Source of the DNA: Myxococcus stipitatus
GTDB lineage: Bacteria; Myxococcota; Myxococcia; Myxococcales; Myxococcaceae
Length of the DNA stretch: 64,000 nt
Assembly: GCF_038561935.1 (NCBI RefSeq)
Contig: NZ_CP102770.1
Location: forward strand, 1,302,001 to 1,366,000
Direction of reading: 5' to 3'
Part shown: in pieces, positions 371 through 14,472 of the stretch
Position numbering within the stretch: position 1 is the stretch's first letter
How the letters are laid out: each line of letters starts with the position of its first letter
Notes under the pieces: generated by a model
Seen by the model: only the letters and a program-made list of their open reading frames with translations
Told to the model about the DNA's origin: nothing
Database searches by the model: none
Made by a program: the position numbers and the translations under genes

Positions 371-1957
371 TCACAGGGGCTCGGAGGAGCGGAGCGCGAC
401 GTCATGGGCGATGGCCGCGGCACGCACGCGGCCGGCGGCGAGGTGCTGCTCGATTTCCTGAAGCAGCGTCGCGTTCACCCCCGCGGTGCGCATGGAGGCG
501 ATGTTCAGGCGCATGGTGCCGGGGAGGGTGGTGTTGACGTAGTTGCGGGACTTGGAGAACTGGAGCGCGAGGGTGTTGCAGCCCGTGCCCATCCAAGGCG
601 TGGCGGCGGCCTTGGCGCAGACGGACTCGAGCTGGAGGATGCTCTCGTGCTCCTGGAGCTTGCCGGCGAGGAAGTAGAGGCGAAGCTTCGTGCTGCGAGG
701 AGGCAGCTTGCCGACCTCGGTGACGCGGGCGGTGGTCTCGGCGAGGAACTGGGTGGAGGCGGCGAGGTTGGTGTTCTGGACGATGGTCTGACGCGTGGCC
801 TGGTCGGCCTGGAGCGTCATGAGGGCCGTCTGGCGTCGGCGGATGCCGTCGAGCGTCTTGGTGACGATGTCGCCGGTGCGCACGTAGCGCGAGTCGGCGT
901 AGGCCTGGATGCTGGCGAGCACTTCCATGGGCTCGTCGGCGAGCTTGGGGCGCGCGACGTTGTGCGTGCGGATGAAGTCGAAGTGGGGCTCCAGCTCCTC
1001 CTCGAACTCGTCATGGACGCGGGCCAGCTGGCGCGAGAGGCGGAAGGCCTCGAGCTGGAGCTGCTGCGGGGCGATGCTCTCCGCGCGGTGGAGCTGGACG
1101 AGCTCCAGCTGGACGTTGGGGAGTGTCGCGAGCGTGGCGGTGGAGGCCTGCTGGACGAGCGTGTTGAGGCGGGCGAGGAGGATGGGCTCGTTGGTGCGGT
1201 AGGTCTCGAACTGCGTCACCAACGCGGCATAGGCGGGCTGGTGGGTCTGGAGCTTCGCCTGGTGGCGGTCCAGCAGGGACTGGATCTCCTGCATCGTCTC
1301 GCGCTGGTGGGCGAGGTCCGCCTGGATGGGCTTGCCCTCCGCCTCCGCCTTCGCCTTCAGCAGCTCCGGGAGGGTGGAGTTGAGGATGTTGCGGTTGCTG
1401 GTCTCCACCCGCCGGATGGGCGCGTGGTAGCCGTTGACCATCTCGTTCGCGATGTCGCGAATCTTCCGGAGGCTCTGCTCGAAGGAGGTCGCGGTGACGT
1501 CCGGCGAGTTGGCGGTCCGGTAGAAGACGGCGATGCGGTCGACCTGCTGGTTCCAGGCGTCGAACTGGTCCGGGCTGGTAGCTGCCTCGACCCAGAGCAC
1601 GGGCGGGTACTTCATGCAGGCTTCCCAGGCCCGCTTCTTCTCGGCCTCCGTGGGGTTGCCGGGATTCTCGGCGAGGACGATGCAGTTGGACCGGATGCTG
1701 TCGAGGACACCCTGGTACAGGTCCGCCGGCTCCCGTGTGCTGGAGCAGGTGGTGGGGATGACCTTGTAGTCCGGCCGATACGCGCAGATGGCGGGAGTCG
1801 AGGCGGCCCGGGTCACCGTCGCGGTGGGGCCGGGCTCCTTGTTGGCGGAGGTGGGAGGAGACTCGGGTGACGTCTGCTGTCCGCAGCCGGCGGCGAGCAG
1901 GAGCGCGGCGAAGGGCACGAAGCCGTGGCCGCGGATGAAGCGCAAGGGCGAAGTCAT
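371..1957 (-). CDS. Large predicted lipoprotein, helical, unknown function
   Basis: The 528-residue product starts with a lipoprotein signal: a basic N-terminus, a hydrophobic stretch and a lipobox LAAGC with the lipidated Cys at residue 25, followed by a Ser/Pro/Thr-rich linker to about residue 55. The body is dominated by long amphipathic helices rich in Leu, Gln, Glu and Arg (roughly residues 130-470), suggesting a helical bundle or coiled coil. Several Cys lie near both ends (for example in the CAYRP, TTCSS, NCIVL, EACMK and VCAKA segments) and could form disulfides in the periplasm. A weak AAAGGA-like ribosome site lies about 15 bases upstream. It is 66 bases downstream of the exported protein gene ending at 2024 and probably in its operon. 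I do not recognise the family. Confidence 0.8.
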   Translation of the reverse strand: MTSPLRFIRGHGFVPFAALLLAAGCGQQTSPESPPTSANKEPGPTATVTRAASTPAICAYRPDYKVIPTTCSSTREPADLYQGVLDSIRSNCIVLAENPGNPTEAEKKRAWEACMKYPPVLWVEAATSPDQFDAWNQQVDRIAVFYRTANSPDVTATSFEQSLRKIRDIANEMVNGYHAPIRRVETSNRNILNSTLPELLKAKAEAEGKPIQADLAHQRETMQEIQSLLDRHQAKLQTHQPAYAALVTQFETYRTNEPILLARLNTLVQQASTATLATLPNVQLELVQLHRAESIAPQQLQLEAFRLSRQLARVHDEFEEELEPHFDFIRTHNVARPKLADEPMEVLASIQAYADSRYVRTGDIVTKTLDGIRRRQTALMTLQADQATRQTIVQNTNLAASTQFLAETTARVTEVGKLPPRSTKLRLYFLAGKLQEHESILQLESVCAKAAATPWMGTGCNTLALQFSKSRNYVNTTLPGTMRLNIASMRTAGVNATLLQEIEQHLAAGRVRAAAIAHDVALRSSEPL

Positions 1958-3242: not shown

Positions 3243-3267
3243 TCACACTGTGATGAGCGGGGTTACA
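3243..3267 (+). promoter_or_regulatory. 25-base element shared with the multicopper oxidase operon, upstream of the sigma gene
   Basis: Within the 401-base divergent region 3011-3411, which holds no gene, sits a perfect 11-base palindrome (TCACACTGTGA, 3243-3253). It continues as TGATGA-type sequence and, after five unconserved bases, GTTACA (3262-3267). The same arrangement (TCACA-S-TGTGATGA, five bases, GTTACA) occurs in reverse complement at 14473-14497. The downstream edge is 145 bases before the sigma-factor ATG here and 144 bases before the first lipoprotein ATG there. It could be an operator of a metal-responsive regulator or part of an ECF promoter. Which of these it is cannot be told from sequence; the conservation itself is directly visible. 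The rest of the gap shows nothing I can name. Confidence 0.6.
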
Positions 3268-3411
3268 CCCGAGGGTGGCCCGCCGCGGGCCAACTCATGA
3301 GAATCGTTGGTGCGCGCCTCGGGTACGCGACTTGCCTTGTGCACGGGCTCGGCCCGGCGCATTCATGGAGATGCGTGGCACGGGGCTGCTGAAGGTCAGA
3401 GGAGGGAAGGG

Positions 3412-3993
3412 ATGAACGCAGTGGAGCAGGGTGGCGTGGAGGCGATGCGGGAAGAGGGCGACGTGGTGACGCGGGCCCTGGTGGAGAATCACCGGCAGTT
3501 CCTCGCCTTCGTGGAGCGGCGCGTGGGCAACCGCGCGACGGCGGAGGAGATCCTCCAGTCCGCCTTCGTGAAGTCGTTGGAGAAGAGCGGCACGCTGTCC
3601 GACGCGGAAGGCGCGGTGACGTGGTTCTACCGTCTGCTGCGCAACGCGATGGTGGACCACTACCGTCGCCAGCAGGTGGAGGGGCGCGCGCTGGAGCGCG
3701 AGGCTCGGGAGGCCGAGGAGCCGTCCGAGGACCCGGAGCTGAAGCAGGCCGTCTGTGCGTGCGTGGGCAAGCTGCTGCCCACCCTCAAGCCCGAGTACGC
3801 GGAGATGGTGCGCCAGGTGGACCTGGAGGAGCGCGCCGTGCCCGACGTGGCTCGCGAGGCGGGCATCACCCCCAACAACGCGGGAGTGCGGCTGCACCGC
3901 GCCCGGCAGGCCCTGAAGAAGCAGCTGGAGCGCAGCTGCGGCTCCTGTGCGTCCCACGGCTGCTTGAACTGCTCCTGCAAGTCACACGCTTGA
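3412..3993 (+). CDS. CorE-like ECF sigma factor with Cys-rich metal-sensing tail
   Basis: The 193-residue protein has sigma region 2 at about residues 20-90 (AEEILQSAFVKSLEK, WFYRLLRNAMVDHYRR) and region 4 at about 118-172 (LEERAVPDVAREAGITPNNAGVRLHRARQALKK). Beyond region 4 is a short tail with five Cys (176, 179, 184, 187, 189) and His 182 and 192; a CxC pair (115, 117) lies in the linker between the two domains. As I recall, both features mark the CorE family of M. xanthus, whose Cys-rich domain senses copper directly without an anti-sigma factor. No anti-sigma gene is adjacent here. The start at 3412 has a strong GGAGGGAAGG ribosome site; an upstream in-frame start at 3307 lacks one. The nearby Cu-ATPase and multicopper oxidase support a copper role; cadmium or zinc (as in CorE2) remains possible. 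Confidence 0.88.
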   Translation: MNAVEQGGVEAMREEGDVVTRALVENHRQFLAFVERRVGNRATAEEILQSAFVKSLEKSGTLSDAEGAVTWFYRLLRNAMVDHYRRQQVEGRALEREAREAEEPSEDPELKQAVCACVGKLLPTLKPEYAEMVRQVDLEERAVPDVAREAGITPNNAGVRLHRARQALKKQLERSCGSCASHGCLNCSCKSHA

Positions 3994-4193: not shown

Positions 4194-5186
4194 ATGGAAA
4201 CCGTCTCACCCTCCCCAGAACCGCTCTCCCTCGACGAGTGCAAGGTCCGCGCTTCGCTCCTGCTGAAGGGGCTGAACTCGGCCGACTCGGCGCGCGCCGC
4301 GCAGGCGGCGGAGCGCTTCCGCTCGCTGCCCGCCCTCTCCCGGCTGTCCCTGGGCGAGGTGCTCGCGCGGCGGGACTCCCTCCTGCGCAAGCACGCGCTC
4401 GCCGTCATCGCGCACGAGCAGGGGTACACCTCGTGGAGCGCGCTGAAGCACGCGTGGGACGCGCGAGCGGCGCCTCGCGTCGACTTCGAGCAGCTCCTCT
4501 CCCGCGTGGGCGGCCTCTTCCTCAACCGCTGGTTCTCCTCGTACGAGGAGGCCGTCGCCTCGCTGCGCCAGGAGGGCGGCCACCTCTTCCCCTTCCGGGA
4601 GCAGTTCTTCATCTGCGAGTCCCCGCTCCTGAAGGTCCTGGGCGCGGAGCCGTCCGATGCGGACTGGGAGCGGATGGGGCCCAACTGGCTGGAGCCTCGG
4701 GATGCGCAGGCCCAGGCCCGGCTCGAGCAGCGCCTCCTCCGGCTGTGCCGCGAGGACGCGTCCCACCCTCTTCACCCCACAAGGAAGCCCGCCATGTCCT
4801 CCGCCGAGTCCTCTTCACCCACTGGAAGTCGAGCGCGCCGCGCGGACCTCAAGCGCGAGTACAAGGAGAATCCCCCGGCCATGGGCGTGTACGCCGTGCG
4901 CAACCTCGCCAATGGCAAGGTGCTGGTGGGCGCGAGCCTCAACGTCCCGGGCATGCTCAACCGCATCCGCTTCGAGCTGACCAGCGGCATGCCTCGCGTC
5001 CCCGCGCTGCTGGCGGACTGGAACCGCTACGGGGAGAGCCAGTTCTCCTTCGACGTGCTGGACGTGCTGGAGCCGCCCGAGGAGCCGGGCGCGGACCTGA
5101 AGGAGGCGCTCCTGGTGCTGGAGCGGCTGTGGCTGGAGCGCCTCAAGCCCTACGGGGACGCGGGCTACAACGAGCCCCCCAAGTAG
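4194..5186 (+). CDS. Fused protein: ankyrin-associated N-terminal domain plus GIY-YIG-like domain
   Basis: The 330-residue frame joins two parts. Residues about 10-90 carry a pattern (ARAAQAAERFRSLPALSRLSLGE...LRKHALAVIAHEQGYTSWSALK) common at the N-terminus of ankyrin-type proteins, without ankyrin repeats following. From residue 201 the sequence matches the stand-alone GIY-YIG-like family of about 120 residues: GVYAVRNLANGKVLVGAS, then LNRIRFEL, ADWNRYGESQFSFDVLDVL and LERLWLERLKPYGDAGYN. Met201 (base 4794) is itself preceded by an AAGGAAG ribosome-like site at proper spacing, so a second translation start or an ancestral gene boundary is plausible. The GIY motif reads GVY...VLVG, so nuclease activity is uncertain. 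The frame starts at ATG 4194; no strong ribosome site precedes it. Confidence 0.75.
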   Translation: METVSPSPEPLSLDECKVRASLLLKGLNSADSARAAQAAERFRSLPALSRLSLGEVLARRDSLLRKHALAVIAHEQGYTSWSALKHAWDARAAPRVDFEQLLSRVGGLFLNRWFSSYEEAVASLRQEGGHLFPFREQFFICESPLLKVLGAEPSDADWERMGPNWLEPRDAQAQARLEQRLLRLCREDASHPLHPTRKPAMSSAESSSPTGSRARRADLKREYKENPPAMGVYAVRNLANGKVLVGASLNVPGMLNRIRFELTSGMPRVPALLADWNRYGESQFSFDVLDVLEPPEEPGADLKEALLVLERLWLERLKPYGDAGYNEPPK

Positions 5187-11055: not shown

Positions 11056-12525
11056 TCAGCCGTGTCTGCCTCCTGGCGAAGCAGGCTCGGCGCGGGGCAC
11101 CGTGTTCACGTCGATGCCGTCCCGGCTCAGCTCCTCCGACGTCGCCGCGATGGACTGCGTGCCGGGCGGGTTGTCGTACCACCCCGGGTCTCCCTCGCCC
11201 GTGAGCCGCTCGCGCACCTTCACCACGGTGAACATGCCCCCCATCGTGATGTAGTCGTACTTGCCCTTCGCGCCCACCATCGGGATGGAGTTCTTCGGCA
11301 CGGGCATGCCCATCTCCGCCATGTCGCCCATGCCCGTCTGTCCCATCGTCATGTAGCCGGGCAGCAACGTCCGCACCTTCGCGTCCAGTCCTCCGGGATT
11401 CACGCCAATCACCACCGGCAGGTCATGGCCCATCTGGTTCATCAGGTGGTGCGTCATGTGGCAGTGCATGGCCCAGTCCCCAGGCGCGTCCGCGACGAAC
11501 TCGATGGTCCGGGTGCTTCCCACCGGCACCAGCACCGTCGTCTCCGGCCACTGCGCGGACGGGGGAATCGGGCCCGCATCCGTCTCGGTGATGCGGAAGT
11601 GATAGCCGTGCAGGTGGATGGGGTGGTGGTCCATCGCGCTCAGGTTGCCCATCCGGATGCGCACCCGCTCCCCCTGCTGCACCACCAGCGGCTCCGTCCC
11701 CGGGAACGCCTTGGCGTTGAACGTCAGCAGGTTGAAGTCCGTCATCTCGTTCGGGTCCGGCCGCCGGGCCCCGGGCTCCACCTTCCACTCATGCATCAAC
11801 AGCGCGAAGTCGCGGTCCACGCGCGGGCCCACCGGACGACGCGGATGCATGATGAACAACCCCACCATGCCGAGCGCCATCTGCGTCATCTCGTCATGGT
11901 GCGAGTGATACATGCCCGTGCCGTGCTGGCGGATGGTGAACTCGTAGCGGTACGTCTCCCCCGGCGCGATGGACTTCTGGTTGAGCCCCCCCACGCCATC
12001 CATCCCGTTGGGGAGAATCAACCCGTGCCAGTGCACCGTGGTCGGCGCCGGCAGCCGGTTGGTGACGTAGAAGCGCACCCGGTCTCCCTCCACCACCTCG
12101 ATGGTGGGCCCGTGCACCTGGCCGTTGTAGCCCCAGCAGTTCGCCTGGATGCCCGGCGCGAACTCGTGCTCGACCTCCTCGGCCACCATGTGGAAGACCT
12201 TCACGCCGTCCACAACCTTCCACGGCAGCTTCGTCCCGTTCGGCACGATGACGGGCCGATAGTCGCGGCCCGGCAGCCCAGGCGACAGCCAGTCCTTGCG
12301 CACGGGCGCGGGGGCTCGACGCGCGGGAGCGCTCGGTGTCGACTGCTGCGCCTGCGCCAGGTTGCCCCGTAGGAGCAGCGCCCCGCCCGCGAGCGTGGCC
12401 CCCGCGCTCGCCAGCATGCTCCGCCGGCTCATCCCCGCGGGGGGCGTCTGCTCGGACGAGGTCGTCTCCAGCGTGTCGTCGGTCTCCCCCGGAGCCGGGG
12501 AGGAGTCAGGAGGAAGTCGGTTCAT
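11056..12525 (-). CDS. Tat-exported multicopper oxidase (CuoB-like)
   Basis: The 489-residue protein starts at ATG 12525, which overlaps the stop of the upstream gene (ATGA). A twin-arginine signal (SRRSMLASAGATLAGG, about residues 33-60) follows an unusually long Ser/Thr/Glu-rich N-terminal leader. Four copper-binding regions are visible: H165-W-H167, H207-S-H209, H300-HPIHLHG, and H354-C355-H356 with H360 and M365, giving a complete type 1 site (Cys 355, axial Met 365) and the trinuclear cluster. Such oxidases convert Cu+ to the less toxic Cu2+ in the periplasm. A Met-rich region near residues 385-425 (MTMGQTGMGDMAEMGMPVP) may bind extra Cu+. It is the last gene of a three-gene operon whose promoter region shares an element with the sigma gene. 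Confidence 0.93.
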   Translation of the reverse strand: MNRLPPDSSPAPGETDDTLETTSSEQTPPAGMSRRSMLASAGATLAGGALLLRGNLAQAQQSTPSAPARRAPAPVRKDWLSPGLPGRDYRPVIVPNGTKLPWKVVDGVKVFHMVAEEVEHEFAPGIQANCWGYNGQVHGPTIEVVEGDRVRFYVTNRLPAPTTVHWHGLILPNGMDGVGGLNQKSIAPGETYRYEFTIRQHGTGMYHSHHDEMTQMALGMVGLFIMHPRRPVGPRVDRDFALLMHEWKVEPGARRPDPNEMTDFNLLTFNAKAFPGTEPLVVQQGERVRIRMGNLSAMDHHPIHLHGYHFRITETDAGPIPPSAQWPETTVLVPVGSTRTIEFVADAPGDWAMHCHMTHHLMNQMGHDLPVVIGVNPGGLDAKVRTLLPGYMTMGQTGMGDMAEMGMPVPKNSIPMVGAKGKYDYITMGGMFTVVKVRERLTGEGDPGWYDNPPGTQSIAATSEELSRDGIDVNTVPRAEPASPGGRHG

Positions 12526-13940
12526 GGGGTCGCTCCGTGGCCGTCGTGAGAGGGCGGGTGGCCCTTCGCGGGGGTGGGTGGGGCGGAAGGCGCGCCGGGG
12601 AGCTGCCCGCCCACGAGCTGCTCCAGGTCCGCGCGCGCCATCCAGTAGTCGCGGATGGTCTCGATGTACGTGCGGTATGCGCCAATCTGCTCGCGCTTCG
12701 CCTCGAGCAGCACGTACAGGCCTATCTGCATCGCGTTGTATTGAAGCTGCGACTGCTCGACGACCTGCTCCCGCAGCGGGAGGATGCCGCGCTGGTAGCG
12801 CTCGGCGACACCTCGCAGCGTCATCACCCGAGCCCTCGCGGCGCGCACCTCCGAGCGGGCGTTGATGGACAGCTCCGCCAGCCGGCGCTCGCCTTGTCGA
12901 TGCTGCGCCTCCAGCCTCGCGATGAGCGCCTGCCGCTGGTCGAAGATGGGCAGGTCCACGCTCAAGGACGGCCCCAGGAGCTTGGGACCGTCCGGGTCTC
13001 CATGGAGGCTGGCGCCTACGTCCACGCGGCCGATGTAGCGCGTGCTCCTCGCCAGCTCGAGCGCGTTCCACAGCGCGCTGACCTGCTTGCGAGCCGCGTC
13101 GATGTCCAGCCGCTGCTTCACGGCGCGCGACTCCAGCTTCTCCAGCGACACCTCCTCGGTCGGAGGCGCGGGCAGCTTCTCCTCGATGCGCCAGCCCGTC
13201 CGCGCACCCCACAGCCCCATGAGCTGGTTGAGGTGCTCCCGCTCCTCCACGAGCGCGAGCTCCTCCCTCGCGAGGTCGAGCCGCGTCTCCTCGGCGAACG
13301 CCTTCTCGGTGACGAGCGCCAGGTCGTTGATGTTGCCCTGTCCGTACTGGAGCGTCGCCAGCTCGGCCGCGGCGTCGGCGGCCACGAGCACCATGCCGCG
13401 CAGCTCCACGAGCTGCTGCCGCGCCTGCACCTCGCGGTACGCCTTGCGCACGTCCGCCGCGACCCGGAGCGCCTCATGCGCGACGCGCAACGTCTCCGCG
13501 TCGAACTGCTCCCGGGCGACCTTCTTGCGCAGCGGCATCGTGAACAGCTCGAGGAAGCCCTGCACCAGCGAGAACTCCGTCTCCATCTCGCCGTCACGGG
13601 TGAGCGGAATGCCCAGGCCGATGCCCAGCGACGGATTGGTCAGCAGCCCCGCCTGCACCAGGTCCGCCTGGGAGACCCCCAGGTCCTCGTAGGTCGACTG
13701 GAGCGCGGGGTTGTTGAGCAGCGCCACCTCCACCGCGCGGTCCGAGGTGAGCGGCCCCTTCAGCAGCTCGTCGAGGTGGTGCTCGACCTGCGCGTCCTCG
13801 GGTGTGCCCTGGTTCCAGCGCGTCTTCCGCCCGATGCGTTCCTCGACGAGCGCGGCCACCTCCGTGTGTCCGCGCTCCTTCTGGACCGTGGCGCAGCCGC
13901 TGGCGAACAGCAGCGCGCCTGTGGTGATGACGAGCCTCAC
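12522..13940 (-). CDS. TolC-family outer-membrane efflux lipoprotein
   Basis: A GTG start at 13940 overlaps the upstream stop (GTGA) and gives 472 residues opening with a lipoprotein signal (VRLVITTGALLFASGC). Two long helical repeats, each with an ALLNNP- or AL-type motif typical of outer-membrane factors (DRAVEVALLNNPALQSTYEDLG near the start; SLSVDLPIFDQRQALIARLEAQ in the second half), identify the TolC/CusC fold. The C-terminus ends in a His- and Pro-rich tail (PPTPAKGHPPSHDGHG) that could bind metal. It is sandwiched between a metal-binding lipoprotein and a multicopper oxidase with overlapping codons on both sides, implying coupled translation. No RND pump or adaptor is in this operon; it might act with the RND system encoded from 15615 or with another pump. 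Confidence 0.9.
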   Translation of the reverse strand: MRLVITTGALLFASGCATVQKERGHTEVAALVEERIGRKTRWNQGTPEDAQVEHHLDELLKGPLTSDRAVEVALLNNPALQSTYEDLGVSQADLVQAGLLTNPSLGIGLGIPLTRDGEMETEFSLVQGFLELFTMPLRKKVAREQFDAETLRVAHEALRVAADVRKAYREVQARQQLVELRGMVLVAADAAAELATLQYGQGNINDLALVTEKAFAEETRLDLAREELALVEEREHLNQLMGLWGARTGWRIEEKLPAPPTEEVSLEKLESRAVKQRLDIDAARKQVSALWNALELARSTRYIGRVDVGASLHGDPDGPKLLGPSLSVDLPIFDQRQALIARLEAQHRQGERRLAELSINARSEVRAARARVMTLRGVAERYQRGILPLREQVVEQSQLQYNAMQIGLYVLLEAKREQIGAYRTYIETIRDYWMARADLEQLVGGQLPGAPSAPPTPAKGHPPSHDGHGATP

Positions 13941-14329
13941 GGATGCCCTCCGTGCTGGCCGTGTCCCCCATGCCCTCCGTCCGTGCCCGCGTCCTGGCCC
14001 TTCGTCGGCGTCAGTTTCATGCCGCACTTGGGGCACGTCTCGCCGGGCTTGTCGGACTGGACCTCGGGGTGCATCGGGCACGCGTAGGCGGCGGTGCCCG
14101 CATCCGGGGCGGAGGAAGTGTCGGCTTCCGGATGATGCGCGTGAGGCCGTGAAGGCGCGGCGGGTGGAGGCGTGGAGGGCGGGGCCGCGAGCGCGCTCGG
14201 GAGGGCGGCGGGCGGGGCCTCGGGCGCATCGGGGCTCGAGGGGTCCACCGATGGGGCGAGCCGCTTGGGCTCGGAAGCACAGGCGGCGAGCGTGAAGACG
14301 CTCGCGAGTACACACAAGAAGGGACGCAT
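13937..14329 (-). CDS. Small lipoprotein with heavy-metal-binding zinc-ribbon-like domain
   Basis: The 130-residue product (ATG 14329) has a lipoprotein signal (MRPFLCVLASVFTLAACAS, Cys 17 at the lipobox). A long Pro/Ala/Ser linker follows and then a CPMHPEV..DKPGETCPKCGMKL module near residues 82-107, the same domain that occurs twice in the Cu-ATPase. It ends in a Gly/His tail (GGHGGHGQHGGHP) that probably binds metal. An upstream in-frame start at 14380 would place 17 residues ahead of the lipobox signal and is less likely. It is the first gene of the operon that continues into the TolC-like and oxidase genes, and the shared 25-base element lies 144 bases upstream. A periplasmic or outer-membrane copper sponge or chaperone is the natural inference. 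Confidence 0.85.
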   Translation of the reverse strand: MRPFLCVLASVFTLAACASEPKRLAPSVDPSSPDAPEAPPAALPSALAAPPSTPPPAAPSRPHAHHPEADTSSAPDAGTAAYACPMHPEVQSDKPGETCPKCGMKLTPTKGQDAGTDGGHGGHGQHGGHP

Positions 14330-14472
14330 GTCGGACCTCGGCGTGGCGCGAAGGCGCGCCGCCACGAATCGAGGTCCCATTCAGCAAGCCCCAGGCCACA
14401 TCGCTGGCAGGCACAACTCCCCGAACTGACGGCGGATACACGTCAGAGGCGCTGTGTCGGGTCCCGCATCCC

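Follow-up and report, generated by a model that had tools for sequence, protein, structure and literature searches.

A 25-base element that occurs twice in the analysed stretch of DNA (64,000 nucleotides from Myxococcus stipitatus, hereafter the window) is very probably an upstream activating sequence (enhancer) for a CorR-type bacterial enhancer-binding protein of the CorSR copper system. The assignment was made from sequence comparison: the element consists of an inverted repeat and an extra half-site, lies upstream of matches to GG-N10-GC promoters and before metal-resistance genes, and is found in genomes that encode CorR. Since both copies stand upstream of sigma-54-type promoters, a role as an upstream activating sequence is most likely, rather than one as a promoter for a metal-dependent sigma factor.

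Two copies of the element and their conserved form

The two copies precede a CorE-like sigma gene and a lipoprotein-efflux protein-multicopper oxidase operon (Table 1). As given in the preliminary description of this DNA, both are present in identical orientation relative to the genes behind them, and 145 and 144 bases separate the element ends from the ATGs at 3412 (+) and 14329 (-), respectively. The likeness, which had been held to be far beyond chance, was borne out: with up to three mismatches, two matches were found in the window and none in each of 100 dinucleotide shuffles. The genome-wide motif search proposed in the same description returned only these two copies in 10.17 Mb at up to three mismatches, with further matches in relatives, and the reversed control pattern gave 0 matches in the whole 10.17-Mb genome. 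It is hardly credible that the two copies are alike by chance or derive from a recent duplication without function, even though they lie within 11 kb of each other, given the empty shuffles and the fact that the strict form of the element (TCACAS in front) is kept in 37 of the 145 genomes of the order, 36 of these in the family, whereas the sequence that separates it from the promoter is mostly variable in relatives.

Table 1 Features of the two window loci and of related sites and CorR genes in the same genome. Positions up to 64,000 refer to the window, larger ones to the genome or contig.
Feature	Position	Strand	Remarks
Element 1, predicted CorR site preceding the sigma gene	3243-3267	+	TCACACTGTGATGAGCGGGGTTACA
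Element 1, extra half-site TCACA	3243-3247	+	
Element 1, inverted repeat TGTGAT-N7-GTTACA	3249-3267	+	
Putative sigma-54 promoter, sigma gene	3321-3336	+	GGGTACGCGACTTGCC; 78 bases from element start; 9/13 consensus positions
CorE-like ECF sigma factor gene	3412-3993	+	193 aa; CXC in linker, Cys-rich C-terminus
Element 2, predicted CorR site preceding the oxidase operon	14497-14473	-	TCACAGTGTGATGACGCCAGTTACA
Element 2, extra half-site TCACA	14497-14493	-	
Element 2, inverted repeat TGTGAT-N7-GTTACA	14491-14473	-	
Putative sigma-54 promoter, oxidase operon	14398-14383	-	TGGCCTGGGGCTTGCT; 99 bases from element start; 11/13 consensus positions
Lipoprotein-like gene, heavy-metal binding domain (HMBD)	13937-14329	-	
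Outer membrane efflux protein (OEP) gene	12522-13940	-	
Multicopper oxidase gene	11056-12525	-	489 aa from ATG at 12525
Repeat site	6199609		23-base perfect palindrome before cupredoxin gene; sigma-54 match 9/13 at 97 bases
Repeat site	6200259		before CusCBA-like efflux set (OEP, CusB-like, RND) in CorR1 locus; no good promoter match
Repeat site	5752963		no metal genes or promoter match noted
CorR2 gene	~1,280,339-1,281,739		beside a CorS gene; ~20 kb left of window
CorR1 gene	~6,206,604-6,208,001 (L174 12605-14002)		closes cupredoxin-CusCBA locus

Comparison with relatives gave the conserved form TYACA-S-TGTGAY-N7-RTYACA, an inverted repeat with an extra half-site, in which TYACA-S-TGTGA makes a second palindrome that overlaps the inverted repeat. 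The pattern described from the two copies stands for these copies, but its fixed letters are not quite right: in relatives TGTGA is followed by T or C, the 'A' of 'TGA' is variable and GTTACA becomes RTYACA. Over 55 sites, the positions of TCACA are conserved in 52-54 and those of TGTGA in all 55, with few exceptions to RTYACA in the far arm; these sites were picked partly by promoter distance, so the matrix is no evidence for the phasing described below. At up to three mismatches the seed pattern matched in 42 of the 96 family genomes and in 8 of 26 genera, some of the three-mismatch matches looking spurious. Carriers of the strict form include Myxococcus eversor (G056), M. dinghuensis (G055), M. 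qinghaiensis (G065), Pyxidicoccus caerfyrddinensis (G054) and P. fallax (G057). In the neighbouring genus g6, which we guess to be perhaps Corallococcus-like, the element reads GTGTGAC-N7-GTCACAC behind TCACA. One site in locus L111 has the extra half-site on the promoter side, and this half-site is thus not a strict indicator of direction.

A related palindrome, TGTGAC-N7-GTCACA with an AT-rich centre, was seen in several genomes (L196 1501-1519, corresponding to 5752963 in the window's own genome, and G056, G062 and G065). The one copy read had neither metal genes nor a sigma-54 match, and this palindrome perhaps belongs to another regulator.

Putative sigma-54-type promoters downstream of the element

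Putative promoters of the -24/-12 type (GG-N10-GC) were scored over 13 positions of TGGCACGRNNNTTGCW, the consensus quoted in the available text of PMC3707914. From the matches behind the two elements, transcription is predicted to start near 3347 for the sigma gene and near 14372 for the oxidase operon. The preliminary description had laid weight on the equal distances to the start codons; because the distance from element start to putative promoter is 78 bases for the sigma gene and 99 for the oxidase operon, the leaders differ, and the near-equal 144 and 145 bases look coincidental. The place of the sigma-gene promoter is kept in relatives (76-78 bases from the element start); it is a weak match (9/13), the -24 part of which overlaps a possible ECF-type promoter. 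Another candidate nearer the sigma start codon, TGGCACGGGGCTGCT at 3376-3390, was rejected on account of a GG-GC spacing of 9 instead of 10 and variation at this place in three near relatives.

It is very unlikely that the element is itself the promoter of a CorE-like metal sigma factor, or that the sigma gene is transcribed from an ECF promoter in the conserved GGAAT...GGTACG block (3298-3327) and not from a sigma-54 one. GGAATC is conserved about 16 bases before GGTACG in the sigma/RND promoters, and M. xanthus copA is under both CorE and CorR-sigma-54 control according to the available part of PMC3707914, but neither element contains an AAC in the direction of the gene, such as the -35 regions of CorE promoters have in the accessible text of PMC3107203, the element is 78 or 99 bases away from the promoter, and the oxidase operon has no forward GGAATC block. 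Deriving a CorE motif from the upstream regions in L105 yielded nothing clear. The common regulator proposed earlier for the two genes is supported in the form of an activator that binds a palindrome; the alternative then offered, a metal-sigma promoter, is disfavoured by the lack of AAC and by the sigma-54-type promoters kept downstream in relatives.

An extra half-site with up to one mismatch was carried by 54 of 93 site-orientations, and the 39 without an oriented half-site were left out of the promoter count. Sigma-54 matches of at least 9 were present in 49 of the 54 oriented sites, all 49 at 76-78, 86-89 or 97-100 bases from the element start, as against 566 of 5000 random scans of 140 positions in random fragments of the loci that reached this score. 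The other five comprise three sites that score 8 (at 72, 76 and 78 bases), one that scores 7, and one in L111 with its match on the opposite side at 118. Further promoter types were seen at 56, 68, 97-98 and 118-119 bases. Thirteen promoter classes in the family, hand-picked as one per promoter type, cluster on a 10.5-base period (R = 0.86, p ~1e-5; p = 0.003 for the 7 distinct distances alone), which is the expectation if activator and polymerase must face each other. Helical phasing was not replicated outside the family (23 distances, p = 0.097).

A further conserved block was observed between element and promoter in relatives (window ~3288-3308, +, and 14440-14408, -), with the letters CAAC...GGAATCgtTG in front of the sigma/RND operon and GTC..TTC.GGG.GTTG in front of the oxidase operon, in roughly opposite orientations. 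It perhaps serves DNA bending; an IHF site within it was rejected, as it did not fit the IHF consensus when compared by eye.

Genes behind the element

The sigma factor of the window is 78% identical to the product of a G077 sigma gene that lies away from the CorE position and 60-61% identical to the sigma factor at the CorE position. A sigma gene also stands directly behind the element in L109, L128, L140, L141 and L118. In at least nine loci of relatives (L114, L117, L131, L132, L135, L136, L137, L138 and L207), the counterpart of element 1 is followed by membrane-fusion and RND genes and finally by the sigma gene, and the gene directly after the element in these loci encodes an efflux protein (Pfam for one). 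This arrangement bears on a further point of the preliminary description, namely that the element is absent from the Cu-ATPase and RND promoters of the window, which would split the metal genes into two regulons. The absence is confirmed: no third copy of the inverted repeat with up to one mismatch lies anywhere in the window, and hence none at the promoters of the Cu-ATPase (5331) or RND (21152, minus) genes. The split between sigma gene and RND genes is not general, however, given the relatives' efflux-RND operons that have the element in front and end with the sigma gene. In the whole genome the repeat TGTRAY-N7-RTYACA occurs at five places, four of which precede metal-resistance genes.

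The gene that follows the sigma gene in the window (4194-5186) is uncharacterised, with a weak endonuclease-domain match below the cut-off; a look-alike (L107 8735-9685) follows the orthologous sigma gene of G077.

CorR, CorS and their co-occurrence with the element

CorR proteins consist of a receiver, a sigma-54 activation domain and a Fis-type HTH (HTH_8). With genome lists drawn from matches above 600 bits, two groups were distinguished among the 96 family genomes, CorR1 in 14 (counting G049) and CorR2 in 40. The genome of the window encodes both on the same contig, and neither is adjacent to the elements, the paralogues lying at ~1.280 Mb and ~6.207 Mb. No CorS match was found in the 20 kb read around CorR1, for which reason its kinase may be the CorS encoded next to CorR2. 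The helix-turn-helix segment GNVT(R/H)AAERAGMERESLHRLLKR is common to most CorR1 and CorR2 proteins, with small changes in more distant ones, and is nearly identical in the two paralogues of this genome. Judged by co-occurrence, CorR2 is the likelier binder of the two.

Gene order in relatives places the element within CorSR loci. In L113 the genes for the oxidase CuoA, the kinase CorS and the enhancer-binding protein CorR follow in line, with the element between oxidase and corS. In G077 (L105 and L183) the order cupredoxin gene A-oxidase-kinase-CorR-lipoprotein-P-type ATPase is that of the published M. xanthus curA table, and the repeat stands before gene A (promoter match at 98 bases) and before corS (at 99). 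A CorR1 locus was also seen in L111, on a 147-kb contig (C2) of G069, where gene A, the efflux set, the oxidase operon and corS each have a predicted site in front; the CorR2 of this genome is on the main contig, and the 147-kb contig could be a mobile copper island.

Across the 96 family genomes, which are related and not independent, so that Fisher p-values overstate the association, strict element and CorR co-occur in 35; one genome (G031) has just the element, 12 have just CorR and 48 have neither. In other words, 35 of the 36 genomes with the strict element encode CorR, as do 12 of the 60 without it. The plain repeat TGTGAY-N7-RTYACAC is carried by 46 of the 47 genomes with CorR, G049 being the exception, and by 12 of the 49 without it; in the 11 genomes with CorR and the plain repeat only, one copy lies within ~3 kb of CorR. 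As for G031, which has the strict element without a CorR match, its sigma gene is on a contig of 3475 bases, and CorR2 would be expected past the contig end.

Neither CorR2 nor the element was found in five g6 genomes. G029, G021, G026 and G024 retain an intact efflux gene but have lost the DNA that holds element and promoter. In these genomes corSR was not seen next to the orthologous sigma gene, nor did a copy turn up anywhere else at the search threshold; G023 (L181), where the contig ends, was left out of this count. In the efflux-gene tree, G029 groups with element carriers (supports 0.73-0.91), apart from the clade of the remaining three genomes (1.0), making at least two losses likely. 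CorR2 has thus likely been lost together with element and promoter at least twice in this genus.

CorR loci of other families

Twenty CorR loci of other families and one locus around the element of G118 (350 kb and 20 kb, respectively) served as an outside set. G118 was chosen for having the strict element, and carries CorS and CorR on the same contig. The exact repeat was present in only 1 of the 20 other-family loci; the subsequent test at one mismatch, made with shuffle and spacer controls, gave 24 repeats in the 21 loci versus 0 in three shuffles. These 24 near-exact repeats have the spacer of 7, as compared to 0-1 repeats for each of 11 other spacers. Extra half-sites accompany 19 of the 24 sites (1% chance expectation), and 20 of the 24 have a sigma-54 match of at least 10 in at least one direction, against 1.6% per single random scan. 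The RESLHR residues of the helix-turn-helix segment are kept in all 21 loci.

The assignment to CorR is a prediction, and the element might instead serve as operator for some other regulator of palindromic sites, be it a different enhancer-binding protein, a CRP-like protein or a repressor, which shares genomes and loci with CorR by chance. The CRP operator is TGTGA-N6-TCACA. The half-sites TGTGA and TCACA resemble CRP-type letters, but their spacing here is N9 (TGTGA-N9-TYACA), and other spacers are not enriched near CorR genes. We consider such a regulator unlikely: although the CorR-less G031 keeps the element, the repeats of other families concentrate near CorR genes with spacer 7 only, the element was co-lost with CorR2 in two lineages, and the sites precede sigma-54 promoters, which need an enhancer-binding protein.

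Proposed mechanism and relation to known systems

By analogy with the family, CorS would sense excess copper in the envelope and phosphorylate CorR, which would bind the inverted repeat. The DNA would then loop, and the AAA+ domain of CorR would open the sigma-54 RNA polymerase for transcription of the lipoprotein-efflux protein-multicopper oxidase operon and the CorE-like sigma gene. The sigma gene would in this way be subject to an additional control through envelope sensing, and the result would be a cascade in which CorSR and sigma-54 act on an ECF sigma factor. CorSR would raise the level of a sigma factor belonging to a class that requires metal for its own activity. As a possible but doubtful extension, the site may be a composite CorR operator in which two overlapping palindromes have one of three half-sites in common, and through which an envelope copper sensor controls, via sigma-54, the gene for an ECF sigma factor that senses metal in the cytoplasm, such that the sigma regulon would need both envelope and cytoplasmic metal signals and myxobacterial operons would lose the operator together with CorR.

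Enhancers of NtrC-type activators are a well-known kind of site. The NifA site is TGT-N10-ACA. The present element is similar to NtrC/NifA-type upstream activating sequences in being a dyad upstream of a -24/-12 promoter, with activation at a distance, and differs from the NifA site by its TGT-N13-ACA spacing and the extra overlapping half-site.

The curA operon of M. xanthus is under CorSR control; putative sigma-54 promoters precede genes A, B, C and G, and CorS is a predicted periplasmic sensor (PMC3707914, available text). The present system resembles that of M. xanthus in the CorR orthologues with receiver, sigma-54 activation domain and Fis-type HTH, in the copper genes and in the sigma-54 promoters, and G077, with the same curA gene order, has the element before gene A and corS, as judged from sequence. 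In contrast to that account, as far as its available text goes, the site is defined here and also lies before a CorE-like sigma gene and a different oxidase operon. The CorE regulon of M. xanthus likewise comprises copper genes of the same kinds and involves a CorE-like sigma gene, but its promoters are of the ECF type with AAC in the -35 region (PMC3107203, accessible portion), whereas the present element is not a promoter and precedes sigma-54-type promoters. CorE-like sigma factors need metal to act, according to the portions of PMC3107203 and PMC8999054 available. No CorR operator was found in the available text of PMC3707914, and the literature search found no other paper on CorSR binding. 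CorSR control of copper tolerance in M. xanthus is already known and the CorR site seems undescribed; what appears to be new is the definition of the site by sequence, its extra half-site and its link to the CorE-like sigma gene. The site definition makes the CorR regulon readable from genome sequence across myxobacteria, would place the CorE-like sigma gene and CorSR in a single circuit, and offers exact promoters, start sites and mutations for testing.

Apart from the element, a gene set around a 528-aa protein was noted in two similar tandem copies, to the left of and inside the window (L176 5631-7208 and 13372-14958; window 371-1957).
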